Assembly: GCA_023382675.1 (NCBI GenBank) | Contig: JAHDWN010000010.1 | Coordinates: 1-41,107 of the forward strand | Direction of reading: 5' to 3' | Length of the DNA stretch: 41,107 bases | From: Anaerolineae bacterium | Lineage (GTDB): Bacteria > Chloroflexota > Anaerolineae > Aggregatilineales > Phototrophicaceae | Position numbers and translations under genes: made by a program | Shown: positions 5,209-29,844 of the stretch, piece after piece | Position numbering within the stretch: position 1 is the stretch's first letter | Layout of the letters: every line of letters begins with the position of its first letter | Notes under the pieces: generated by a model | Seen by the model: the letters and a program-made list of their open reading frames with translations, nothing else | Told to the model about the DNA's origin: nothing | The model's database searches: none

Positions 5209-5703
5209 GTGAGCGACGAATCCGACAAGAACAAGCAGCTTGTAGATGACATGTACGCAGCCTTGAACAAGAACGTGTTGGGGCTGATGCAGCAGTACTG
5301 GTTCGAGGATATGGTCTGGCAGGGGCCGGCTGGCGTCGGCACGATGAACGGGTTGGAAGAATTCGAATACACCTATCGCCAGCCGTTCATCAATGCGTTC
5401 CCGGACAAGAATGCCAAAGACGTCGTGCGCATCGCAGAGGGGGATTGGGTTGCGGGGACGGGCTATCAAACCACAACCTTTGCCGAGGACTGGCTGGGCA
5501 TTCGGGCGACGGGCAAGCCGATCAAGATCCGCTACATGGACTTCTGGCGCATTGAAAAGCGCGACGGCGAACGCAAGCTCGCCGAAAACCTGGTTCTAAT
5601 CGACATCCTGGATGTGCTGGAGCAGGCGGGTTATGACGTGGCGAAGGTGCTGAAGTTCGTCGGCTCTAAGCCGCCGCAGTTTTTCGATGATCAAGAGGTT
5701 TGA
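5209..5703 (+). CDS. Single-domain SnoaL-like protein
   Basis: The 164-residue protein starts at GTG with an AAAGGG element upstream. It is one SnoaL/NTF2-like domain. WQGPAGVGTMNGLEEFEYTY and AFPDKNAKDVVRIAEGDWVA match the second domains of the two downstream genes. Other conserved pieces are GIRATGKPIKIRYMDFWRI and a final LVLIDILDVLEQAGYDV. It is soluble and has no signal peptide. It lies 56 bp after the MalG-type gene and 24 bp before the next SnoaL gene. The GPAGxG loop, FPD and DxW positions are candidate pocket residues. The reaction is unknown. Confidence 0.82.
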   Translation: MSDESDKNKQLVDDMYAALNKNVLGLMQQYWFEDMVWQGPAGVGTMNGLEEFEYTYRQPFINAFPDKNAKDVVRIAEGDWVAGTGYQTTTFAEDWLGIRATGKPIKIRYMDFWRIEKRDGERKLAENLVLIDILDVLEQAGYDVAKVLKFVGSKPPQFFDDQEV

Positions 5704-5727
5704 TCCCATCCGGCAAAGCAAACAGGT

Positions 5728-6741
5728 ATGGTCACTGACGTTCACCAGCACAACAAAGCATTGATCGGCGCATTTCGCCGTGCTCTTTATGACTGTGACG
5801 TGAGCATGTTGAAAGCTCAGCTTCGCAAAGTCTTCGCGCCCGACGCCCAGATTCATCTGGCGACGCCGCTGGAAGACATGATCGGGGCCGATGGGCTGTT
5901 CGAGCAGGCCTACCAGCCGCTGCTGGCCGCCATCCCGGATCTGGAACGGCGCGATTTCATCGTCATGGCGGGCGCGAGCCGTGGCGACAACTGGATCGGC
6001 TGCGCCGGGCACTACATCGGCGTTTTCGAGCAGCCCTGGCTGGATATTCCGCCGACGCAGCACGCGATCGCCATGCGCTACCACGAGTTTTTCCGTATCG
6101 TGGACGATCAGATCGTGGAAATGCAGGCGCTGTGGGATATTCCGCAGGTGATGATGCAGGCACATGCCTGGCCGATGTCGCCGAGTCTGGGCGCAGAATG
6201 GCTCGTGCCGGGGCCTGCGACACAGGGTGGCCTGATCTCCGCGCCTTATGATAACGCGCGATCAGACGCCAGCCTGAAACTCGTCGGCGCTATGCTCGCC
6301 GGGTTGAAACGTTCGCCGGAGGGCATGGAAGCTATGCAGCTTGATCGCTACTGGCATCCCAAGATGCTCTGGTATGGCCCCGCAGGCATCGGCGTTGCGC
6401 GGCGCATCTCCGGCTTTCGTAACTGGCATCAGATTCCGTTTCTGAACGGCATGCCGGATCGTCAGGCGATCCTTGATGCGGGCGCTTTCTTCGCTGATGG
6501 TGATTACGTCGGCTTCACTGCCTGGCCCGGCATGAAGATGACGATCTCCGGCGATGGCTGGTTGGGCATTGCGCCATCGAATCAGGCGATCACCATGCGC
6601 AGCCTGGATTTCTGGCGCTGTGAGAACGGCCTGATCCGTGAAAATTGGGTGCTGGTCGATCTGCTGCATGCCTATCGTCAGATCGGCGTGGATGTGTTCG
6701 CCCGTATGCGTGAGTTGACGTATGCGCGACAACCGCGCTGA
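5728..6741 (+). CDS. Tandem-domain SnoaL-like protein
   Basis: The 337-residue protein has two SnoaL-like domains. The N-terminal one (about 10-150) has FAPDAQIHLATP, IPDLERRDFIVMAG, WIGCAGHYIGVF and a REVDD-like region ending in helices. The C-terminal one (about 190-335) has YWHPKMLWYGPAGIGVARR, HQIPFLNGMPDR and DFWRCENGLIRENWVLVDLL. The second domain is clearly related to the single-domain protein upstream and to the second domain of the next gene, so the set arose by duplication. It is cytoplasmic by sequence. The ATG has only a weak ribosome site and is probably coupled to the preceding gene. Function is unknown beyond the fold. Confidence 0.82.
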   Translation: MVTDVHQHNKALIGAFRRALYDCDVSMLKAQLRKVFAPDAQIHLATPLEDMIGADGLFEQAYQPLLAAIPDLERRDFIVMAGASRGDNWIGCAGHYIGVFEQPWLDIPPTQHAIAMRYHEFFRIVDDQIVEMQALWDIPQVMMQAHAWPMSPSLGAEWLVPGPATQGGLISAPYDNARSDASLKLVGAMLAGLKRSPEGMEAMQLDRYWHPKMLWYGPAGIGVARRISGFRNWHQIPFLNGMPDRQAILDAGAFFADGDYVGFTAWPGMKMTISGDGWLGIAPSNQAITMRSLDFWRCENGLIRENWVLVDLLHAYRQIGVDVFARMRELTYARQPR

Positions 6742-6798
6742 CGTTCTGGTCGTGGGGATTTTATCCGGCACAGTCATGTGCGTGGGAGACAACTTAAG

Positions 6799-7914
6799 AT
6801 GAGTGACGCCCAAGACAAATATCGCACCTCAACGTTTCAATATGCGCCTATCGACCAGGCGCTGAATATCGCCAACAAGCGGTGTGTTATTGCGATTATG
6901 AACTCGTTGGTGAGCGCGCCGCTTGCCGCCCTCGACGACGCCGTGCGCGCTGGCTACCACGCCGACGCACAGGTGAATGTGACCCACCCGATCAACCAAC
7001 TCAGCGGTGTGGAGGCGATTGCTCAACAGGTGTGGCAGCCGCTGCGCCACGCTATGCCGGATGTGGAACGGCGTGACGACATCGTGGCCGGAGGGCGCTA
7101 TCGTGACGCCAACTGGATCGGCTGCACCGGCCATTACGTCGGCACTTTTGAGCGCGACTGGCTCGGCATCCCAGCGACACGAGGCGTCGTGGCTGTGCGC
7201 TATGCCGAAGGGCACGAACTCCGTGACGGCAAAATCGCCGTCAGCTACCTGTTCATCGACTTTCTCGACCTGATGCGGCAGGCGGGCTACTGGCCGATTG
7301 CCCCCAGCCTGGGCAGCGAAATGCGCTGGCTGCCGCCCGCCACGCACGATGGCGTCGTTCTCAGGCCGCAAGATGAGGCGGTTTCCCGGCGCACGATTGA
7401 GTCAATCCTCAGAATGCACGCGGCGCTCGGCTACTACAATGGCAAGCTGCCCACGCGCGCCGTCCTGGATCAGATGGAGATGATCAAGCACTGGCATCCG
7501 AATTTCATGTGGTACGGGCCGGCGGGCATTGGCACGACGCGCGGGCTGAAGGGATTTGAGGATTATCACCAGATCCCGTTCCTGGTGGCCTTTCCAGATC
7601 GCGGCGGCACGGACATCGGCCATTTCATCCGCATCGGTGACGGCTACTATGCAGTCACGGGCGGCTGGGGCTACTTGCAGGCGACGCACACCGGGCATGA
7701 TTTCCTGGGGATGCCGCCGACGGGCAAGCGCATCAAGATGCGAGTGATGGATTTCTACCGCTGCGACGCTGAGACGATTGTCGAGAACTGGATTCCCATC
7801 GACGTGCCTCACATTCTCATGCAAATGGGCGTGGATATCTTCGGGCGTATGCGCCACCAGTTCCGCCAGCACCAGCCTATCCCGGTCAGCGACTGGTTGG
7901 TGCAAGAACGCTGA
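6799..7914 (+). CDS. Tandem-domain SnoaL-like protein
   Basis: The 371-residue protein is the last of the operon's four SnoaL-like genes. An upstream GTG at 6778 is in frame, but the ATG at 6799 is preferred because GGGAG (6784-6788) lies 10 bp before it. The N-terminal domain (about 20-175) shares MPDVERRDDIV and WIGCTGHYVGTFERDWLGIP with the preceding protein. The C-terminal domain (about 215-360) has WHPNFMWYGPAGIGTTRG, YHQIPFLVAFPDRGG, MPPTGKRIKMRVMDFYRCD and ENWIPIDVPHILMQMGVD. It is soluble. Shared motifs in the same order with the upstream gene indicate tandem duplication. The substrate is unknown. Confidence 0.82.
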   Translation: MSDAQDKYRTSTFQYAPIDQALNIANKRCVIAIMNSLVSAPLAALDDAVRAGYHADAQVNVTHPINQLSGVEAIAQQVWQPLRHAMPDVERRDDIVAGGRYRDANWIGCTGHYVGTFERDWLGIPATRGVVAVRYAEGHELRDGKIAVSYLFIDFLDLMRQAGYWPIAPSLGSEMRWLPPATHDGVVLRPQDEAVSRRTIESILRMHAALGYYNGKLPTRAVLDQMEMIKHWHPNFMWYGPAGIGTTRGLKGFEDYHQIPFLVAFPDRGGTDIGHFIRIGDGYYAVTGGWGYLQATHTGHDFLGMPPTGKRIKMRVMDFYRCDAETIVENWIPIDVPHILMQMGVDIFGRMRHQFRQHQPIPVSDWLVQER

Positions 7915-17348: not shown

Positions 17349-18062
17349 CTAATCTGGATTTTTGCGCAGCAGCGAATACTGGTTGACAGCGCTCGTTTCG
17401 CCATCCGCCCGGTATCGTTCGATCTCGGTCATCTGTGTGGCAGCAGCGAGCGCATCGTGTTCCTGGTCGTTGACATAATGGCAGTAGCGCAGCGCTGGCG
17501 TGCCACGTCGCCAATCGAGCAGGTGGTCGCCTGACTCGACGGCCAGACCTGGCTCCCACGGCACAATTCGCTCGCGAAAGCGCGGATACTCGTAGAAGCG
17601 CCAGCACGCAAAGGCGAGTAGCCCGCCTGGCGCTACTCGTTGGGCTGCACTGCTCATCAGATCGAGTCGCCGCTGCGCGCCCGGCACGTGATGCAGGACG
17701 CCAAACAGAACGACGAGATCGTATTCACCGTGCGGCAAGGTATCGAACACGAAATCATTTACTTCCAGAGCGAGTGACACCCCGGCGGTATCCGCCAGTG
17801 CTTTACGCGCGTAATCTAATAGGGCACTGGAATTATCGATGCCATGATATATCAGCGGGGTAAGCGCATGTTCTGTCAGGAAAGCGCCGAAGCGCCCATT
17901 GCCACAGCCAATGTCCAGCACGCGTAGCGGGGCAGTCAGATGAGGTAGCAGCCGCCGCCAGCCCGGCCAGGCGCGGCCACGTGTCGCATGAAAATCCTCC
18001 GAGGTGCGCGCATAAAAGCTGCGGTTGATCTCGTTCAGATGGCGGGCGGTATTTTCGTCCAC
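17349..18062 (-). CDS. Trm9/ALKBH8-like SAM-dependent methyltransferase (probable tRNA wobble-uridine methylase)
   Basis: The 237-residue protein opens with LNEINRSFYARTSEDFHATR, the start typical of Trm9/ALKBH8-like methyltransferases. RVLDIGCGNGRFGAFL (motif I, about 47-62) and YHGIDNSSALLDYA (motif II) bind SAM. FGVLHHVPGAQRRLDLM and the late HLLDWRRG...RYCHYVND region match the same group. In yeast, Trm9 with Trm112 methylates 5-carboxymethyluridine at tRNA position 34, made by the Elp3-containing Elongator. An elp3 gene lies 918 bp away on the opposite strand and a trm112-like gene about 11.5 kb away, so a shared pathway is plausible (inference). GTG start. Substrate specificity is unproven. 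Confidence 0.75.
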   Translation of the reverse strand: MDENTARHLNEINRSFYARTSEDFHATRGRAWPGWRRLLPHLTAPLRVLDIGCGNGRFGAFLTEHALTPLIYHGIDNSSALLDYARKALADTAGVSLALEVNDFVFDTLPHGEYDLVVLFGVLHHVPGAQRRLDLMSSAAQRVAPGGLLAFACWRFYEYPRFRERIVPWEPGLAVESGDHLLDWRRGTPALRYCHYVNDQEHDALAAATQMTEIERYRADGETSAVNQYSLLRKNPD

Positions 18063-18511
18063 GGTATTCTTTTGCGCAGTTTGTCGCTTGTGATCGTACA
18101 GTGTGACACTCTACAGCGGATCAATCCGCGTAGCTTCTGGCGCACGCTTGCCCTTACCTTCGCTTTGTAGCATCAGCAGCGGGGCTGCGTTAGGCGACAT
18201 GGGCGTGTCCCGCCCAGAAAAGGTTTCTCTCTTGAGCGTTGAACGTTTTACGGGATGGACTGCCCATCCCAACCGCCTCCATTCAGTTCTTAAAGAGCCG
18301 CGTCCGACCAACATGGCGGCTTTTCGCGCTTGCTCACGTTTGACGTCGAACCGTATTGAGTGAGATGATAGCGCATGATCTCCAGCTGCGCGAGTTCTAT
18401 TCGGCTGAAGCCGAAATCGCTTTCAGCCACTGCTGCTTCAGCGGCGTGGCTTTCTCGCGGGCTAAAGCCCAGTTCTGTAAGCGGGTGAATTGACAGGGGA
18501 AGGTCACATAC
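18063..18511. other. 449-bp hairpin-rich spacer between the Trm9-like and DUF3566-like genes
   Basis: No convincing coding frame is present. Short inverted repeats stand in series: AGTGT-G-ACACT (18100-18110), GCGGAT-CA-ATCCGC (18116-18129), TGGGCG/CGCCCA (18200-18216), GGGATGG/CCATCCC (18252-18270), TTCGGC-TGAA-GCCGAA (18400-18415) and GGGC-TAAA-GCCC (18459-18470). The last two have the same GGCTNAAGCC core and look like members of an interspersed small repeat. The region must also hold the divergent promoters of both neighbours, which I could not place with confidence. Confidence 0.6.
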
Positions 18512-18916
18512 ATGATCGCAATCAAGCGCATCGACATTGCATCGGCATTTCGCGTTGGGGCATTAGTATCGGGGTTGTTGGCACTGGTGATGCTCGCCAT
18601 CTTTGCGCTGTTCCAGGCGACCATTATCTCCAGCCTGGTCTCGTTTTCGACAAGCATGGGCGGGCAGCCGATGCCGTCATCAGCGTCATCATTTCTGAAT
18701 GCCGCCAGTGTGGCGAGCCTGTGTGTCTTTTATGGCTGTGGCGTGATCATCCAGACGATTATCGGCGGCATTGTGGCGGCGTTGGCTGCGTTCTTTTACA
18801 ACATCGTTGCCAATCAATTCGGCGGTCTGCAAGTGGAGTTGGACGGGCCGATGTTCGAGCGGATCGAACAGCCCAAGCAGAAAAACACGTTTTTTGACCC
18901 TGATTTCGAAGGTTGA
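18512..18916 (+). CDS. DUF3566-like small membrane protein
   Basis: The 134-residue protein has two hydrophobic segments (about 17-41 and 68-95) and a short soluble tail. The stretch AAFFYNIVANQFGGLQVELDG matches the end of the DUF3566 transmembrane family, whose members share a YNxxAxxxGGxxVxL ending; function is unknown. GGGGAAGG (18496-18503) precedes the ATG at good spacing. It lies 64 bp before elp3 in the same direction, but elp3 seems to have its own extended -10 promoter, so co-transcription is possible but not required. The family call is moderate. Confidence 0.72.
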   Translation: MIAIKRIDIASAFRVGALVSGLLALVMLAIFALFQATIISSLVSFSTSMGGQPMPSSASSFLNAASVASLCVFYGCGVIIQTIIGGIVAALAAFFYNIVANQFGGLQVELDGPMFERIEQPKQKNTFFDPDFEG

Positions 18917-18941
18917 TGTCCTCCTCGCCTGTGACGCAATC

Positions 18942-18950
18942 TGCTACAAT
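18942..18950 (+). promoter_or_regulatory. Extended -10 promoter of elp3
   Basis: TGCTACAAT has the TGn-extended -10 form and lies 30 bp before the GTG start of elp3. No good -35 box is visible. The same TGCTANNAT pattern occurs before the SRP RNA and the 20885 gene. Confidence 0.5.
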
Positions 18951-18980
18951 GCCGGGGCGGTTTGACGGGAGCAGAGCGTC

Positions 18981-20801
18981 GTGGGACATAAGAGTACACT
19001 CGATCTGGAAAAGCATCGCGCGCCGTTGACCGATCTGCTACAGCGGATCGTCGCCATGCCACAGCCGGATCGCGCCGAGATTGACCGCCTGGTTCGTGCA
19101 CAGGCCAAAGGTGGCGGCCGGCAATACAGCCGTGACGAACTCTTACTGGCCTATCGCACCTTTGCTGGCAGCGATGGCTTGCCGCCCTACGATCAAGCAG
19201 TGGTTGAACGGCTGCGTCTCAAGCCTGTCCGCACGAGTTCCGGCGTCACGCCAGTCACTGTTCTGACCAAGCCATTTCCATGCCCCGGCGAATGCATCTT
19301 CTGCCCAAATGACGTGCGAATGCCCAAAAGCTATCTTTCGGAAGAGCCGGGCGCACAGCGCGCAGAGCAGAACAGCTTCGATCCTTATCTTCAAACCTAT
19401 TCGCGCCTCAGCACGTATTACGCAACCGGGCATCCCACCGACAAAATCGAAGTCATCATTCTGGGCGGCACGTGGTCGTTTTATCCGGAAAGCTACCAGA
19501 TCTGGTTTGTGAAGCGCATTTTTGACGCCCTGCACGACTTCGGAGCGGGGATCGACCGCACGTCTGACGTGGAAGTGGCGCTGCGCGAAGTCTCGCAGTT
19601 ACACCCTGAACGCAACACGATCACCGATCGCGTCGATGGGACAGCATTTGAGCGCACCTACAATCAGGTGGTGCAGGCCGTCTATAAAGACGAAATGCGC
19701 CGCTCGCGCGAACTGGCCGGTGAAATCGCGGCCAGCTTACGCCCACGTTCGCCGGTTGATGAGTACGCCACCTGGGATGAGTTGGAGACTGCCCATCGCC
19801 AGAATGAGCAGTCACCCTGCCGGTGCGTGGGACTGGTGATCGAAACGCGCCCGGATCACATCAGTATCGAAGAAGTGATCCGTATCCGACGTTTGGGCTG
19901 CACCAAAGTGCAAATCGGCTTTCAGAGCCTCAACGATGATGTTCTGCGCAAGAACCGCCGCGGGCACACGGTGGCTGCGACGCGGCACGCGGTCAAGCTC
20001 TTGCGTCAAATGGGGTTCAAAATCCATGCGCATTGGATGCCCAATCTCTACGGCTCATCGCCCGAACGCGACATCGAAGACTACCGGCGCATGTTCAGCG
20101 AGCCGGATTTTCGCCCGGACGAGCTGAAAGTCTATCCCTGCTCGCTGATCGAAAGCGCCGAGCTGATGCGCTACTACAGCAACGGTCTCTGGCAGCCTTA
20201 TACCCACGATGAACTGCTGCATGTGCTGGTCGAGTGTTTCAAACAGACGCCCGAATACTGCCGTCTGACGCGTGTTATCCGCGATATTCCGTCGACCGAT
20301 ATAGTCGAGGGCAACAAGCTGACGAACTTCCGCCAGATTGTCGATGATGAACTCAAACGGCGCGGCGAACGCTGCCTGGACATCCGCGCGCGTGAAGTGC
20401 GGCATACACAGGTGGAAGCTGAAGCGCTCCATCTCGACGAGCAATGGTATGAAACGTCATCCAGTGATGAGGTTTTCCTACAATACATCACGGGCGACCG
20501 GCAAATCGCCGGGTTTCTAAGGTTATCGCTGCCGAAAGACGCGCCGCTGACGGATGAACTCGCAGGGGCAGCCATGATTCGCGAAGTCCACGTCTACGGG
20601 CAGTCTGTCGAGATCGGCGATAGTGCCGAGGGGCGAGCACAGCACGCCGGTCTCGGCACGCAGTTGATTGAACGTGCCGCAGACATCGCGCGCGCGCACG
20701 GCTATGCCAGCCTGGCGGTGATTTCGGCGGTGGGAACGCGAGCTTACTATCGTAAACGCGGCTTTGACGACGGACAGCTTTATCAGTTTCGGGCGCTCTA
20801 A
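18981..20801 (+). CDS. elp3: Elp3-family radical-SAM/GNAT enzyme (tRNA U34 carboxymethylation)
   Basis: The 606-residue protein has the two-domain Elp3 layout. The radical-SAM core starts at the CxxxCxxC motif Cys101-Cys105-Cys108 (CPGECIFCPNDVRMPKSYLS), continues with DKIEVIILGGTWSFYP, and has the IETRPDHI and KVQIGFQSLNDDVL elements. The C-terminal GNAT acetyltransferase domain (about 465-606) contains REVHVYGQSVEIG and HAGLGTQLIERAADIAR. In eukaryotes Elp3 attaches a carboxymethyl group to uridine 34 of tRNAs using acetyl-CoA; bacterial homologues, including one from Dehalococcoides, act alone on tRNA. GTG start with GGGAG 9 bp upstream. A hairpin follows the gene. The nearby Trm9-like and Trm112-like genes fit the next step. 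Confidence 0.95.
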   Translation: MGHKSTLDLEKHRAPLTDLLQRIVAMPQPDRAEIDRLVRAQAKGGGRQYSRDELLLAYRTFAGSDGLPPYDQAVVERLRLKPVRTSSGVTPVTVLTKPFPCPGECIFCPNDVRMPKSYLSEEPGAQRAEQNSFDPYLQTYSRLSTYYATGHPTDKIEVIILGGTWSFYPESYQIWFVKRIFDALHDFGAGIDRTSDVEVALREVSQLHPERNTITDRVDGTAFERTYNQVVQAVYKDEMRRSRELAGEIAASLRPRSPVDEYATWDELETAHRQNEQSPCRCVGLVIETRPDHISIEEVIRIRRLGCTKVQIGFQSLNDDVLRKNRRGHTVAATRHAVKLLRQMGFKIHAHWMPNLYGSSPERDIEDYRRMFSEPDFRPDELKVYPCSLIESAELMRYYSNGLWQPYTHDELLHVLVECFKQTPEYCRLTRVIRDIPSTDIVEGNKLTNFRQIVDDELKRRGERCLDIRAREVRHTQVEAEALHLDEQWYETSSSDEVFLQYITGDRQIAGFLRLSLPKDAPLTDELAGAAMIREVHVYGQSVEIGDSAEGRAQHAGLGTQLIERAADIARAHGYASLAVISAVGTRAYYRKRGFDDGQLYQFRAL

Positions 20802-20884: not shown

Positions 20885-21400
20885 ATGGATCAGGTGCTGG
20901 CGCAGGAAAAAAAGCGGCAAAGGCTGCGTGTCGTCTTGTTTGCCATCATTATGGCAACCTTGCCCTGCTACTGTGCTGGTTTCCTGCTCTGGGTGACGGC
21001 TCCGCAGCAGGGCGCGGGTTCTCAGCAGTCGCTCAACACCGCGACGGCAACGTTCACGCCATTTGTCTTGAACACTTCTACCAGTGGCGCGCCACTCGTC
21101 ATCACGCCTCTGCCGTTGACTGGCACGCCATTCAGCCCGTTGCAGCCGACGCCCGGCCAGTTCTTCCCGCCGGCGGTGACACGTTACCTCTCACCGACGC
21201 CGTTCATTTTCCCGACATTGACGCAAGCGCCGACGCTGACGCCATTTCCGACGTTTGCGCCGCCGACGGAGACGCCGTTCGTGGCGCCGACAGCGGCTCC
21301 GCCGCTGCCAACGGAGACGCCGATTGAGGTTCTGCCGTTCCCAAGCGATACACCGCTCCCGCCAATGGAGATTCCAACCGAAACCCCACTTGGGCAGTAA
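20885..21400 (+). CDS. Membrane-anchored Pro/Thr-rich protein
   Basis: The 171-residue protein has a basic N-terminus, one hydrophobic helix (about 16-38, including CYC) and an extracytoplasmic tail dominated by Pro, Thr and Phe in loose TPxP / PTxTPF repeats. The tail has no recognisable domain and is probably extended, perhaps O-glycosylated or a wall spacer (inference). Such Pro/Thr-rich tails are common in Chloroflexota surface proteins. AAGGG precedes the ATG. It may be the first gene of the run containing the three M42 peptidases, with a 92-bp gap to the first. Codon choice in the tail is repetitive (ACG CC-rich). Confidence 0.75.
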   Translation: MDQVLAQEKKRQRLRVVLFAIIMATLPCYCAGFLLWVTAPQQGAGSQQSLNTATATFTPFVLNTSTSGAPLVITPLPLTGTPFSPLQPTPGQFFPPAVTRYLSPTPFIFPTLTQAPTLTPFPTFAPPTETPFVAPTAAPPLPTETPIEVLPFPSDTPLPPMEIPTETPLGQ

Positions 21401-21492: not shown

Positions 21493-22581
21493 GTGTTTGA
21501 CCTGAAAGCTCATCTCAAGACGCTGGTTGAGGCGCATGGGCCGTCCGGCCACGAAGGCCCTGTGCGCGATCTGGTACGCGCCGCATGGACAGATGTCGTC
21601 GATGAATTCGAGCAGGATCGGCTGGGCAGCCTGATTGGCATCAAACGCGCGACACAGCCGCTGCCAGGGCCGCGCACGATCATGCTGGCCGCGCACATAG
21701 ATGAGATCGCTATGATGGTGCGCGATGTCGTTGGCAGTTTCATCTTTGTGCAAAAGGTGAGCGGTGTCGATAACCGCATCATGCTTGCGCAGCCGGTGCT
21801 TGTTCACGGGCGGCGTCCGCTGTCCGGTATTGTCGCTTCCGTGCCGCCACATTTGCTTAAAGGCAGCAACAATAACAATCGTTATCCGGAGTTCGATGCC
21901 CTGGTGATCGATGTCGGCCTGCCTGCGGACGAGGTTGCGCATTTGGTTCGCATCGGCGACCTGATCACCGTTGACGTACCGCTGATCGAATTGGGGGCGA
22001 ACCGCGTTGCTGCCAAAGCGCTGGATGACCGCATCTGCGTGGCCGCCGTCACGGCCTGTTTGCATCATCTCAAGCGGCTGCAACATGTTTGGGATGTCTA
22101 TGCCGTCGCTACTGTTCAGGAAGAAAGCGGACTGCTCGGTGCCAGAACCGCAGCTTACAAGGTGAAACCTGACATCGCCATCGCGCTCGACGTGGGGTTT
22201 GCCAAGCAGCCAGGTGTCAACGATGACAAGGCCATCGACATTGGCGGCGGTCCTGGGATCGGCATTGGTCCGAATTTCCACCCCAAGCTCAACGAAAAGA
22301 TCAAAGACACCGCGCGCAGCCTGGAGATCAAGCTTCAGGACGATCTCATCCCTGGCGCCAGCGGCACCGATGCCTGGGCGATCCAGGTTTCGCGCGAAGG
22401 TATCCCCTCGGCGCTGCTGGAAATCGCGATTCGCAACATGCATTCGCCCGTCGAAACCGCCGACATGCGCGATCTGGAACGCACGGGGCGCTTGCTGGCA
22501 GAGTTCATCGCCGCGCTTGACGCTGATTTCTTGTCGGCTCTGAGCTGGGACGAGCTAAAGACGCAGGAGGCAGTGAGCTAA
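21493..22581 (+). CDS. M42-family metallo-aminopeptidase (paralogue 1)
   Basis: The 362-residue protein has the two-metal M42 set: His68 and Asp70 in LAAHIDEIAMM, the bridging Asp in AAKALDDRICV, the catalytic Glu pair in VQEESGLLGAR, the Asp in ALDVGF, and the C-terminal His in NMHSPVE. Members (TET, FrvX, glutamyl aminopeptidase) are cytosolic and form hollow dodecamers that trim peptides from the N-terminus. The start is GTG 21493. It is followed after 2 bp by a second M42 gene, a DUF4268 gene and then a third. The three differ widely outside the motifs, so they are old duplicates with different preferences or mixed complexes (inference). Confidence 0.92.
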   Translation: MFDLKAHLKTLVEAHGPSGHEGPVRDLVRAAWTDVVDEFEQDRLGSLIGIKRATQPLPGPRTIMLAAHIDEIAMMVRDVVGSFIFVQKVSGVDNRIMLAQPVLVHGRRPLSGIVASVPPHLLKGSNNNNRYPEFDALVIDVGLPADEVAHLVRIGDLITVDVPLIELGANRVAAKALDDRICVAAVTACLHHLKRLQHVWDVYAVATVQEESGLLGARTAAYKVKPDIAIALDVGFAKQPGVNDDKAIDIGGGPGIGIGPNFHPKLNEKIKDTARSLEIKLQDDLIPGASGTDAWAIQVSREGIPSALLEIAIRNMHSPVETADMRDLERTGRLLAEFIAALDADFLSALSWDELKTQEAVS

Positions 22582-22583
22582 TC

Positions 22584-23636
22584 ATGGATGTGCAACTGCT
22601 TAAGTCCCTCTCAGAAGCGCGCGGCATCTCCGGCCAGGAAAGCGCAGTGCGTCAGGTGGTGTTGAACGCCATCGACGGCCATGGAGAACAGATTCGCATC
22701 GATCCGCTCGGCAGCATCACGGCGGTCAAACCCGGCACAGGCCAACGCCGTTTGCGCGTCATGATCGCTGCGCACATGGACGAGATCGGTTTCATGGTCG
22801 CCGGCGTCGATGGCGATGGCCTGGTACGTTTCACCAACGTCGGCGGCGTGGATGATCGCATTTTGCCCGGCCTGCGCGTCAAGATCGGCACGAATGGGAT
22901 CAGCGGAGTAGTTGTATGGACGCCGATCCATCTCAACCGCGATCAGGCTGTCGTTAAGATGAGCAGTCTGCGCATCGACATTGGTGCGTCGAGCAAAGAC
23001 GATGCCAATGGCAAAGTCAAACTCGGCGACATGATCGTTTTCGATACGCGTTTCGCCGAACTCGGCGATCAGATGGTGCGCGGCAAGGCCTTCGACGACC
23101 GTGCGGGCTGCTCCCTGCTGATCGACGTGCTGCGCGGCGGCCCTTATCCGGTCGATGTACTGGCCGCATTCACCGTGCAGGAGGAGATCGGCTTGCGCGG
23201 CGCACAAGTGGCGGCGCAGTTCTTCCAGCCCGATGTCGCTTTCGTGCTTGAGGGCACGACGGCGAACGACATCCCCAATCCGTTGCGAGAAGTGGACGAT
23301 CAAAGCGCGCTGAACCCGACCTGTCATGTGCTCGGCGGGCCGGTAATCAGCATCATGGATCGCAGCCTGATTGTCGATCCGCGCATGTTCAATTTCCTCA
23401 AGGCGACTGCCACGAAACATGAGATTCCTTACCAACTCAAGACGCAGTTGGGTGGTGGCACGGATGGTGGCTCGATTCATACGGCCAACAGCGGCGTGAT
23501 GACTGGCGTTATCTCGCTGCCGTGCCGCTACATTCACAGCCCGGCGGCATTGCTGCATCGTGCGGATTATGACCATGCGCTCCGTTTGATCCAGGCCGTT
23601 CTTCAAGATATTGATGACGCGGTGGTTCGGCGGTGA
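22584..23636 (+). CDS. M42-family metallo-aminopeptidase (paralogue 2)
   Basis: The 350-residue protein has all metal and catalytic residues in place: IAAHMDEIGFMV, RGKAFDDRAGC, FTVQEEIGLRGAQ, the Glu of FVLEGTTAND (Glu replaces the Asp seen in the neighbours at the second-metal ligand), and PCRYIHSPAALLHR at the end. NPTCHVLGGPVISIMDRS and QLGGGTDGGSIHTANSGV are the usual substrate-loop elements. It is the closest of the three to the FrvX/YsdC type. ATG 22584 follows the preceding stop by 2 bp, so the pair is co-transcribed and probably translationally coupled. Confidence 0.93.
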   Translation: MDVQLLKSLSEARGISGQESAVRQVVLNAIDGHGEQIRIDPLGSITAVKPGTGQRRLRVMIAAHMDEIGFMVAGVDGDGLVRFTNVGGVDDRILPGLRVKIGTNGISGVVVWTPIHLNRDQAVVKMSSLRIDIGASSKDDANGKVKLGDMIVFDTRFAELGDQMVRGKAFDDRAGCSLLIDVLRGGPYPVDVLAAFTVQEEIGLRGAQVAAQFFQPDVAFVLEGTTANDIPNPLREVDDQSALNPTCHVLGGPVISIMDRSLIVDPRMFNFLKATATKHEIPYQLKTQLGGGTDGGSIHTANSGVMTGVISLPCRYIHSPAALLHRADYDHALRLIQAVLQDIDDAVVRR

Positions 23637-26930: not shown

Positions 26931-29468
26931 CTATGCCTCATCGAGCAAGGTATAGGCATTTTCCGCATATTGGTGTGCTGTGCCTTCGACGGGGATGAAG
27001 TTTACGTTGCGCGCTTCAGCATCGATTTTTTCAGTCGTCACCCGTTCCTTGAGTTTGCGCAGATCGCGGTCATTCGGGTCTTGCTTCAGCGCTTCGTCCA
27101 CCAGCAGTTCTGTCACCAGCAGGTGACGAGGGCTTTGAACCAGCACGTTGGCGAGTTCAACCGTCGTGCTCACGATGTCTTCGCGATCTCCGGCCAGATA
27201 TGCGAGATGCAGTGCCTGCCGGTAGCGTAGAACTGCTTGCCCAAGCTGATTCGCTTGCACAAAAGCAAATCCCAGGCTGTTCAACTGCATCGCTTCCTCT
27301 TGTTTATCATGAACCTCGCGAGCGATGTAAAGCGAAGAAGTATGGAAGTTGGTGGCTTCCGTCCAACGCCCCAGTTCACCGTAGGCCGCACCCAGCGCGC
27401 CGAGCACGCGGCCTTCATAGTCGCGCCGTTCCTGGGTTTTGAACATCTTCAACGCAGTTTCCCAAATTTCACTGGCCTTTTCCGGGTTATTGTTGTCAAG
27501 CTGGGCATAACCGAGCTTGAATAACAGGACGGCCTCTGTACGCGCATTGTTGGCGCTGCGCACCAGACCGAGGGCTTCTTCATACGTATCAATTGCTGCG
27601 TCGCTTTCGCCCAATTGCTGCTGAACGTCGCCGAGCGTTGTCACCAGGTGAATCTGCTTGCCCATTTCGCCCAATTGATCGGCCAGACTTATCCCGCGGG
27701 CAGCATGGAGCGCTGCCGCATCCAGATTCTCTGTTTTTGCCTCAAGGGTTGACAGCGCCTCCAGCACATTAAGCACCTCACCCCGATCATTCACGGCTTC
27801 GAACAGCGTCAGCGCTTCGGCATAATTCGAAATGGCTTCATTCTCGTTGCCATCGCGAACATACACAGAGGCAATGGTCTTCAGCACCTCTGCCTGCCGT
27901 CGCTGGTCGTTCAATTGGCGTGCTTGCACCAGGGAGGCGCGCAGGCGTGCCATTTCGCCCAGCGCTTCTGGCGGTGTCGGCTCTATCTCCTGCGGCGGCA
28001 GCGGTATATCATCCTCTTCGTCTTCGAAGTCTTCTTCGTCGAGAAGCTCATCTTCGATTTCATCGTCGAAGACCTCGTCCTCTTCATACAATTCGTCGTC
28101 GAAGGGGGGTTCTTCGAATTCTTCGGCTTCGATGTCTTCGTCGAATTCCTCATCAAGAACGTCTTCTTGCGGCAGCACTGTAGGCGCGGAGGGAGATGCA
28201 TATGCCGGAAATGGTGTGCTGGAACTTGCAGCAGCCCGGCGGATTTGCAGGAGTTCGTGTAGATAACCGCGCGCATTCACAAAATCGCCGGCCTGCATGA
28301 GCGACACGGCAAGTTGATTCGGTGTGTCCCGATCATTCTTGTCGGCGGCCCATTGCGCCGCCGCGACGAAGCTTTCGGCTTCGGCAGCGAGCCGGTCGTT
28401 GTTGTTGCTGAAGCGGCTTGCGTAGGCAATGATCGCGTCGCGGACTTTGTTCTCTAGCCCGGCCAGACGCTGCGAGCCGCGCAGCCAGCTCTTGCCGAAA
28501 TCCTTGACCAGTGGATGCAGGCGATAATAAGACGAGCCATAGCGGGTGAAGCGCTCGACCAGATGCCGGTTGACCAGCATCTCCATCGCTTGATTGACCC
28601 CTTCGACAGGCGCGCCGCTGATCATGCTCAACAAATCGCCAGATCCCTGCCCTTTGAATGTTGCGGCCAGCATCAGCATCAGGCCTTGCAGGGCGTTTGG
28701 CAGCCCGCGGAAGGCCGTGGTCAGCGCAAGTAAGGCTTCCGGTGCTGCGCCGCCGGCGCTCTGGGGCAGCGAGTTGAGAAATGCGTCCGGCGTCTGGTTG
28801 TTGAGCTTGACTGATGCGGCTGAGATCGAGATCGCCAGTGGATTGCCGCCAAGCGCAGCAACCAGCGCTGACGGATCGTTTGCGTTGTCCTCGTCCACAT
28901 CGGCGATATGGTTGAAGAGCGCCCTGGCTTGTTCGGGTTGTAAGCTCGTCAACTCGACGCTTGACCATGGCCCATCCATATCCTGTGGCGCGGTCAGCAA
29001 GACGGGCACCATGTCTGCACACTGATCGATGAAATCGGCCACCGCTTCCTCATCTGGATCGCCGTCGAACACGATCAGCGGCTTGTGCTGCTGAATCGCA
29101 GCCGTTAAAGCCCCGATCATTGCCAATGGCGTGTCACTGTTAGCGACATCGATCATTTCAAAGGCGCGTGCGACGCGAACGATCAAATCGTCCAGTGTCT
29201 CATTCTCGACCGACAGCCAGATGACGCCGCCCGGCAGCTCGCTGTAGGCGCTGGCGAGCGTCGCGGCTAACGCTGTCTTGCCAATGCCGCTGTCGCCATA
29301 AACCAGCACCGCGTCGTTGTTTTTCAAATCGCCATAAATCTTCGCGAGCAAGACATCACGCCCAACCAGCTTAGTTGGCAGCATAACGGGGAGCGCCTGA
29401 GGATTATGCACGGGAGCTTCATGAGGCGTATATTCTGCCATCGGATCGTCTCGCTTTGTCTGCGCCAC
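26931..29468 (-). CDS. STAND-type NTPase with acidic linker and TPR repeats
   Basis: The 845-residue protein opens with an AAA/NB-ARC-like ATPase module: Walker A GDSGIGKTAL at 58-67, Walker B-like KPLIVFDGDPDEEA, and a winged-helix-like LLSMISGAPVEGVNQAMEML region to about 320. An extremely acidic stretch (about 430-490, mostly Glu, Asp and Phe) separates it from eight or so TPR-like repeats (about 510-800: NEAISNYAEALTLFEAVND, LGDVQQQLGESDAAIDTYEE). STAND proteins are switches that oligomerise on ligand binding and signal through an effector; no effector domain is evident. It is transcribed toward the kinase gene, and a promoter with a palindromic operator precedes it. The start is GTG 29468 or ATG 29441. 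Confidence 0.88.
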   Translation of the reverse strand: MAQTKRDDPMAEYTPHEAPVHNPQALPVMLPTKLVGRDVLLAKIYGDLKNNDAVLVYGDSGIGKTALAATLASAYSELPGGVIWLSVENETLDDLIVRVARAFEMIDVANSDTPLAMIGALTAAIQQHKPLIVFDGDPDEEAVADFIDQCADMVPVLLTAPQDMDGPWSSVELTSLQPEQARALFNHIADVDEDNANDPSALVAALGGNPLAISISAASVKLNNQTPDAFLNSLPQSAGGAAPEALLALTTAFRGLPNALQGLMLMLAATFKGQGSGDLLSMISGAPVEGVNQAMEMLVNRHLVERFTRYGSSYYRLHPLVKDFGKSWLRGSQRLAGLENKVRDAIIAYASRFSNNNDRLAAEAESFVAAAQWAADKNDRDTPNQLAVSLMQAGDFVNARGYLHELLQIRRAAASSSTPFPAYASPSAPTVLPQEDVLDEEFDEDIEAEEFEEPPFDDELYEEDEVFDDEIEDELLDEEDFEDEEDDIPLPPQEIEPTPPEALGEMARLRASLVQARQLNDQRRQAEVLKTIASVYVRDGNENEAISNYAEALTLFEAVNDRGEVLNVLEALSTLEAKTENLDAAALHAARGISLADQLGEMGKQIHLVTTLGDVQQQLGESDAAIDTYEEALGLVRSANNARTEAVLLFKLGYAQLDNNNPEKASEIWETALKMFKTQERRDYEGRVLGALGAAYGELGRWTEATNFHTSSLYIAREVHDKQEEAMQLNSLGFAFVQANQLGQAVLRYRQALHLAYLAGDREDIVSTTVELANVLVQSPRHLLVTELLVDEALKQDPNDRDLRKLKERVTTEKIDAEARNVNFIPVEGTAHQYAENAYTLLDEA

Positions 29469-29592: not shown

Positions 29593-29844
29593 CTATTTGT
29601 CCGGCGGAGGGACGGGAAGATCTTCGACGGCTGTCTCTTTCCACTTTTCCCCTTCCTCGACGAGCATAACCGGAATACCGTCGCGGATCGGATACTTATT
29701 GCCGCTATCGGCGCACACCAACCAGTAGTCTTTCACCAACTCCAGCTTGCCGGGATCATCGCCCTTGTCCTTGTAATGCACCGCGACCGGGCAGCGCAGG
29801 ATCTTGAGCATTTCGGGATCGATTTGTGGAGGTTTTTCCGTCAT
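29593..29844 (-). CDS. Trm112-like (UPF0434/YcaR-type) small protein
   Basis: The 83-residue protein has MLKILRCPV at the start and the hallmark NKYPIRDGIPVMLVEE in the middle, as in Trm112/YcaR proteins. Eukaryotic Trm112 is the activating partner of several methyltransferases, including Trm9. The zinc site is degenerate: Cys18 is followed by PVAV instead of PxC, and the second pair is CADSGN, so at most two of four ligands remain. A region of about 20 charged residues is inserted between the two. It is monocistronic, with a good promoter upstream and a terminator downstream. A link with the methyltransferases of this window is inferred, not shown. Confidence 0.85.
   Translation of the reverse strand: MTEKPPQIDPEMLKILRCPVAVHYKDKGDDPGKLELVKDYWLVCADSGNKYPIRDGIPVMLVEEGEKWKETAVEDLPVPPPDK

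Follow-up and report, generated by a model that had tools for sequence, protein, structure and literature searches.

A divergent elp3–methyltransferase gene pair conserved in Anaerolineae: a candidate Trm9-like route of wobble-uridine modification in bacteria

The closest described counterparts of the genes considered here are Elp3 and Trm9 of eukaryotes and archaea. Genes for both proteins are present in archaea (passages of PMC2584109 and PMC5372719); in Sulfolobus solfataricus the Trm9 gene is clustered with elp3 and an archaeal route has been predicted (passages of PMC2584109), and in Haloferax Trm112 interacts with Trm9 and activates it (as cited in a passage of PMC8651126). Regarding bacteria, Elp3 is described as conserved in numerous members (a passage of PMC13315578), a passage of PMC5372719 reports no Trm9 detectable in them, and the part of a 2020 review that deals with these nucleosides lists 5-carboxymethyluridine (cm5U) and 5-methoxycarbonylmethyluridine (mcm5U) for archaea and eukaryotes, whereas the only members of the group that it gives for bacteria are 5-carboxymethylaminomethyluridine (cmnm5U), 5-methylaminomethyluridine (mnm5U) and 5-aminomethyluridine (nm5U) (PMC7694415). 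Among the papers listed from the open-licence literature, judged by titles and the starts of abstracts, we found none on a bacterial Trm9 or on what follows cm5U in bacteria, and none that pairs Trm9 with Chloroflexi or Elp3 with Anaerolineae, while the two that pair Elp3 with Chloroflexi have titles on other subjects; the bacterial Elp3 treated there is that of Dehalococcoides mccartyi. The stretch of DNA analysed here, referred to as the window, comprises bases 1–41,107 of contig C10 in an Anaerolineae genome (Chloroflexota; 6.4 Mb, 110 contigs, completeness 96.5%). It encodes Elp3 and, divergently transcribed, a Trm9-like class I methyltransferase (MT) dependent on S-adenosylmethionine (SAM), and we propose that the two probably act one after the other on the wobble uridine (U34) of tRNA, leading to mcm5U34 in place of the MnmE/MnmG route.

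Like the eukaryotic Trm9–Trm112 enzyme and the methyltransferase domain of ALKBH8, the window MT has a class I fold and, when aligned to Trm9 of Yarrowia lipolytica (5cm2), the motifs TRxxxW and HH, a D....W lid and RYxH; it too is proposed to work after Elp3. Unlike them it is bacterial, has about 25% identity, belongs to a family with Cys, Val, Ala or Thr in place of Tyr243, has no RRM or AlkB domains, is transcribed divergently from elp3 and gives no indication of dependence on Trm112. The archaeal systems of Haloferax and Sulfolobus resemble the locus in having Elp3 without the other Elongator subunits, and the Trm9 of Natronorubrum bangense has four of the five sites discussed below in common with the MT, all but C194; they differ in belonging to another domain of life, and the pair here stands head to head. 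An earlier note on this DNA had spoken of a eukaryote-like route. The eukaryotic likeness holds, but it is not to eukaryotes alone, since archaea have Elp3 and Trm9 as well, with clustered genes in S. solfataricus (passages of PMC2584109 and PMC5372719). Among bacterial systems, Elp3 of D. mccartyi (DmcElp3) is the same enzyme with the same active-site residues, but the Elp3 type found outside the class Anaerolineae is without the N-terminal extension and the insert of the class Elp3 (11 of its 18 carriers were examined) and is accompanied by MT in none of the 18. The MnmE/MnmG (MnmC) route modifies the C5 side chain of the same nucleotide, U34, but through other enzymes and other chemistry, and MnmG occurs together with Elp3 in none of 201 genomes.

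The MT gene (17349–18062, minus strand; 237 amino acids, GTG start, intact) and elp3 (18981–20801, plus strand; 606 amino acids, GTG start) are divergent open reading frames (ORFs) 918 bp apart, with a gene for a DUF3566 transmembrane protein (PF12089; 18512–18916, plus strand) between them. Because they lie on opposite strands with a gene in between, they are not an operon. The genomic association is the strongest evidence for a functional link between MT and Elp3, and it was followed in three overlapping sets: a relatives sample of 41 genomes (the window's own and 40 relatives), a phylum sample of 201 genomes (the own genome and 200 drawn across Chloroflexota), and the best 80 of 397 related loci in GTDB genomes, fetched with flanks of up to 10 kb each, several of which coincide with contigs of the relatives sample. 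Across the phylum, Elp3 is over the cut-off in 38 genomes, MT is found at E ≤ 1e-20 in 19 and MnmG at E ≤ 1e-60 in 83. The occurrence of MT is nested within that of Elp3, which is present in all 19 MT genomes, and in 16 of these the two genes are divergent neighbours with 221–2185 bp between the matched stretches (the exceptions are G136, G184 and G216). MnmG is excluded from both groups: no genome has it together with Elp3 or with MT, and the zero overlap of Elp3 and MnmG would have a chance of 8e-11 if the genomes were independent, which they are not. As a separate observation, both Elp3 and MnmG are missing from 80 of the 201 genomes at the thresholds used.

Among the relatives, MT orthologues were found in 35 of the 41 genomes, with a best piece of at least 147 bits versus 40.3 bits for the best other protein (in G006, G011, G017 and G034 the orthologue was recovered as two pieces), and the six genomes without one are G014 (78% complete), G025, G028, G029, G032 and G038. 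Elp3 is present in 40/41 at E ≤ 1e-40 and exceeds the cut-off in 37; MnmG is present in 0/41 at E ≤ 1e-40. The own genome gave a weak MnmG match only, one piece of 54.6 bits that is by inference TrmFO, and MnmE, for which the own genome was the sole one searched, gave nothing over the cut-off. Of the 35 MT-bearing genomes, 13 have MT and Elp3 in divergent orientation with no more than 1.3 kb between the matched stretches. The distance is 5.6 and 8.3 kb in G013 and G017, and the remaining 20 have the two genes far from each other or on separate contigs, several of these assemblies being fragmented. Regarding the GTDB loci, 78 of the 80 are titled as Chloroflexota, and the titles of the other two, a Bacteroidetes and a Pleurocapsa minor metagenome-assembled genome, look like naming or binning errors. 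The commonest retained neighbour of MT is Elp3, which lies within the fetched flanks in 37/80 loci and is divergent from MT in 34 of the 37 (not in L111, L114 and L119), with gaps of 5–153 bp in 27 of these 34. The next is a histidine kinase of a generic family (13/80); other window genes are retained in 10 loci (each M42 peptidase), nine (the short gene at 20885–21400) and seven (DUF3566) at E ≤ 1e-8, and those on the far side of MT in at most four loci each. The divergent layout recurs in seven families (f1, f3, f6, f8, f9, f12 and f16), and the pairing is therefore not due to chance.

The window Elp3, a radical SAM and GNAT protein, is by its sequence a genuine Elp3, with cm5U34 formation as its predicted activity. 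It scores 477.8 bits with TIGR01211, for which the curated cut-off is 350, and each of its nine PDB matches carries the name Elp3 or Elongator protein 3. The acetyl-CoA pocket residues K77, K193, E386 and Y441 of DmcElp3 (a passage of PMC6367351) align with K155, K347, E535 and Y589, all four being kept, and the CxxxCxxC motif for the 4Fe-4S cluster is intact in the translation and the PDB alignment (C101, C105, C108; 19281–19304, plus strand). The earlier note had placed an Elp3 gene and a Trm9/ALKBH8-like gene less than 1 kb apart, had linked the two and had pointed out that bacterial U34 is normally modified by MnmE/MnmG; what it observed is confirmed by these data, and its interpretation is partly supported. 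Relative to DmcElp3, an alignment gap marks an insert of about 76 residues (191–266; 19551–19778, plus strand) in the radical SAM domain. An Elp3 tree, used solely for this insert and for the split into two groups, held 45 rows, namely the window and 44 of 59 other loci (15 were filtered out, including the MT-lacking L064, L078 and L079); it separates the class Anaerolineae from a second group of 11 Dehalococcoides-like rows. Before residue 81 of the window Elp3, class rows have at least 66 residues versus 2–29 in the others, as upper bounds from stop-to-stop frames. The columns of residues 189–266 hold 71–82 residues in the 22 rows of the order outside family f2, 2–39 in other families of the class, and 2 in f2 and in the Dehalococcoides-like rows. 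Four members of the order have Elp3 and no MT (L077, L078, L079 and L082, from G032, G029, G038 and G025): the Elp3 of three of the four scores above 505 bits, higher than other Elp3 of the order, and the two that were analysed have no insert, which suggests another Elp3 subtype in these members.

The resemblance of the MT to Trm9 was evaluated with profile A1, made from 27 MT orthologues, and with the wider profile A2 of 37 rows. Using A1, Y. lipolytica Trm9 (5cm2_Z) is the best of 144 PDB matches (E 8.5e-13), in an alignment that spans 26–214 and thus extends past the SAM core into the lid. In the reverse direction, Y. lipolytica Trm9 matches the window MT (E 1.9e-5) and nothing else in the own genome at E ≤ 0.001. 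Plasmid records gave 14 matches to the MT at E ≤ 1e-5, one of them with a query coverage of at least 80%: a haloarchaeal protein of N. bangense (E 1e-7), which itself has Trm9 5cm2 as best match (E 1.3e-16). Phage records searched with Y. lipolytica Trm9 gave no match at E ≤ 1e-4. The AlphaFold model of the MT has a mean predicted local distance difference test score (pLDDT) of 94.9 and strands at 179–184 and 190–195, within a predicted two-stranded lid of residues 179–195 (17478–17528, minus strand) that includes D179, W184, R192, Y193, C194 and H195; a two-stranded lid is described for Trm9 (a passage of PMC5372719).

Five residues of yeast Trm9, R29, H115, R241, Y243 and N271, are required for tRNA affinity and activity (a passage of PMC5372719). 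Four of them are matched in the window MT, as R28, H124, R192 and N227, and Y243 corresponds to C194; the first four sites were mapped through the 5cm2 alignment and N227 through the haloarchaeal Trm9. Yeast numbers were placed on the alignment with what we take to be the yeast sequence. Across 37 MT orthologues, R28 (17979–17981, minus strand), R192 and Y193 are kept in all, H124 in 36 and H195 in 35. At most two of the five Trm9 sites are matched in any of 19 comparison methyltransferases, which are weaker matches from the same or related genomes, the sites in this comparison being ones picked for Trm9. A methyltransferase of an Elp3-bearing genome without MT (L221, on contig C9 of G032) has a TRxxxW-like stretch but neither HH nor RYxH, and profile A2 gives it 55 bits.

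In the proposed pathway, Elp3 would use radical SAM chemistry and acetyl-CoA to carboxymethylate U34 at C5 in some of the tRNAs, giving cm5U34, and the divergently transcribed MT would esterify the carboxylate with SAM, giving mcm5U34. We infer that cm5U34 is the substrate and mcm5U34 the product of the MT and that the two proteins share their tRNA targets. The pair would take the place of MnmE and MnmG in this Chloroflexota class, or in much of it. As to the class as a whole, we lean slightly towards a general system, in which Anaerolineae would have replaced MnmE/MnmG by Elp3 and a dedicated, possibly Trm112-independent Trm9-like MT, with mcm5U34 or its 2-thio form, mcm5(s2)U34, normal there.

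A number of results weigh against this reading. Family libraries matched the MT with generic methyltransferase models only, or far under the cut-offs of named ones, and because no family model names the protein, the label Trm9-like rests on profile, residue and linkage evidence. The single MT sequence has 5cm2_Z among its 40 PDB matches but not as the best (E 1.6e-5), and with profile A2 Trm9 is third of 93 by total score, below two tandem-domain phosphoethanolamine methyltransferases, one of which obtains 22.2 + 35.6 bits by domain versus 57.2 for Trm9. Identity between Y. lipolytica Trm9 and the MT is low (25% over 122 residues); this Trm9 has a match in 25 of the 41 genomes and none in 16, and its best match is the MT orthologue in 18 of the 25 (not in G004, G007, G015, G027, G032, G034 and G036). 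In structure searches, all 1000 of the re-aligned chains reach Z of at least 8, in keeping with a class I fold, a feature not specific to Trm9; Foldseek puts Trm9 5cm2 in 14th place amid many other enzymes, and VIA-align gives Z of 19.3–21.4 across the 50 rows shown, where the absence of 5cm2 is uninformative. Judged on the predicted model, neither program discriminates among class I methyltransferases. The MTs and Trm9 are not sisters in the trees, and two comparison rows with long branches, L218 and L221, fall beside the MTs in one tree and inside them in the other; a single clade of MT and Trm9 is nevertheless not rejected by the approximately unbiased test (p 0.212), and the trees are limited by the long branches of the 19 comparison methyltransferases (18 in the second tree; L216 and L217 are nearly identical) and by a Trm9 sampling of two sequences. 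At 18 non-core columns, picked without Trm9 for their invariance within the MT family, the two Trm9s match 10/17 and 7/10 of the filled sites, a small margin over the best comparison methyltransferases (8/15 or 5/9). Missing family models, similar structure scores for many class I enzymes and trees that do not unite the MT with Trm9 would fit an unrelated methyltransferase of small molecules, lipids or proteins with a divergent promoter region in common with elp3 by coincidence. We consider this improbable, because the linkage holds in seven families while the other neighbours change, Elp3 is present in 19/19 MT genomes and the residues are of Trm9 type. The association has its own weak points: the counts come from related genomes and are therefore not independent, and 19 of the 38 Elp3 genomes in the phylum sample have no MT (18 outside the class and one class genome, G232), as have five Elp3 genomes of the own order (G014, G025, G029, G032 and G038).

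Linkage and co-occurrence indicate a shared pathway only, and the MT could belong to the Elp3 pathway with other chemistry, for instance acting on a further derivative of cm5U or at another atom of the anticodon loop, or serving as a partner of Elp3 instead of a carboxyl methyltransferase. The residue data speak to this on both sides. The counterpart of Y243 is Tyr in none of the 37 orthologues (Cys in 19, Val, Ala or Thr in 18), and N227, the counterpart of N271, is kept in 20 and replaced in 17, both of which count against a Trm9 reaction; but 36–37 of the 37 retain the counterparts of R29, H115 and R241, residues that reportedly orient cm5U34 in Trm9, and we regard other chemistry as rather unlikely. 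A last possibility is a CmoM-like enzyme esterifying the carboxylate of uridine 5-oxyacetic acid (cmo5U34). CmoM carries out the same chemistry on a related base, forming a methyl ester with SAM on a U34 carboxylate, and 8joz CmoM is among the 50 structure rows shown, at a Z of 19.5 that is common to many others. The linkage, however, is to Elp3, and CmoM of gammaproteobacteria needs the cmo5U pathway: CmoB (TIGR00452) was found in 0/41 genomes, the own included, at E ≤ 1e-20, with E. coli alone positive among 14 control genomes. CmoM chemistry is disfavoured for this reason, and the reading was set aside as extremely improbable. A variant compatible with the sequential Elp3–MT pathway is a yeast-like Trm9–Trm112 holoenzyme with a Trm112-like protein of the window as obligate partner, which the evidence on that gene leaves doubtful. 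The gene (29593–29844, minus strand; 83 amino acids, UPF0434) lies 11.5 kb from MT, where the earlier note had put it, and its product matches PF03966 at the threshold (22.0 bits, cut-off 22); its best PDB matches, 2kpi and 2jny among them, are small bacterial proteins (E about 5e-5 to 8e-5). A similar ORF is found about 9–11 kb from Elp3 in G002, G004, G010 and G018, as in the window, which speaks for the variant and points to a gene order common to close kin. Passages of PMC5372719 describe bacterial Trm112 proteins as of unknown function and give a zinc signature, [C/D]PX[C/D]X19-36CX2C, for one archaeal Trm112 subfamily; by eye the window protein does not have it in full, since CPVA is followed by one more Cys only, in CADS, and the signature is not defining for bacterial members. 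Stand-alone Trm112-like ORFs (frames of 82–142 amino acids with the whole or nearly whole model) occur in 17 of the 35 genomes with MT and in three of the six without it (G014, G028 and G029), so their presence does not track MT, and at E ≤ 0.01 PF03966 has no match in five MT-bearing genomes (G019, G021, G026, G030 and G036) nor in G025. None of the 80 fetched loci holds the gene, but 10-kb flanks cannot reach a gene 11.5 kb away. Of the three genes whose co-occurrence in Chloroflexota the earlier note named as a check, MT and Elp3 do go together across the phylum; the Trm112-like gene, judged on the relatives, is not supported as a member of the set.

A conserved elp3–MT pair, accompanied by MnmG in no genome of the 201-genome phylum sample, brings bacterial mcm5U within direct reach of experiment and provides a compact model for the two successive reactions. 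If the proposed pathway is true, mcm5U34 or its 2-thio form, assigned in print to archaea and eukaryotes, would be a normal bacterial nucleoside in Anaerolineae.

Regarding the other genes of the window, the DUF3566 gene is probably outside the wobble-uridine pathway; it adjoins MT also in loci where the fetched flanks hold no Elp3 (L120, L125, L132, L140 and L184). Downstream of elp3, two tandem genes for M42 aminopeptidases (21493–23636) have counterparts in 10/80 loci, all 10 of which have Elp3. The Trm112-like gene is adjoined by a gene at 26931–29468 for an NB-ARC/TPR (STAND-like) protein that contains a long acidic segment, and at 5209–7914 three consecutive ORFs encode what appear by eye to be related SnoaL-like proteins.

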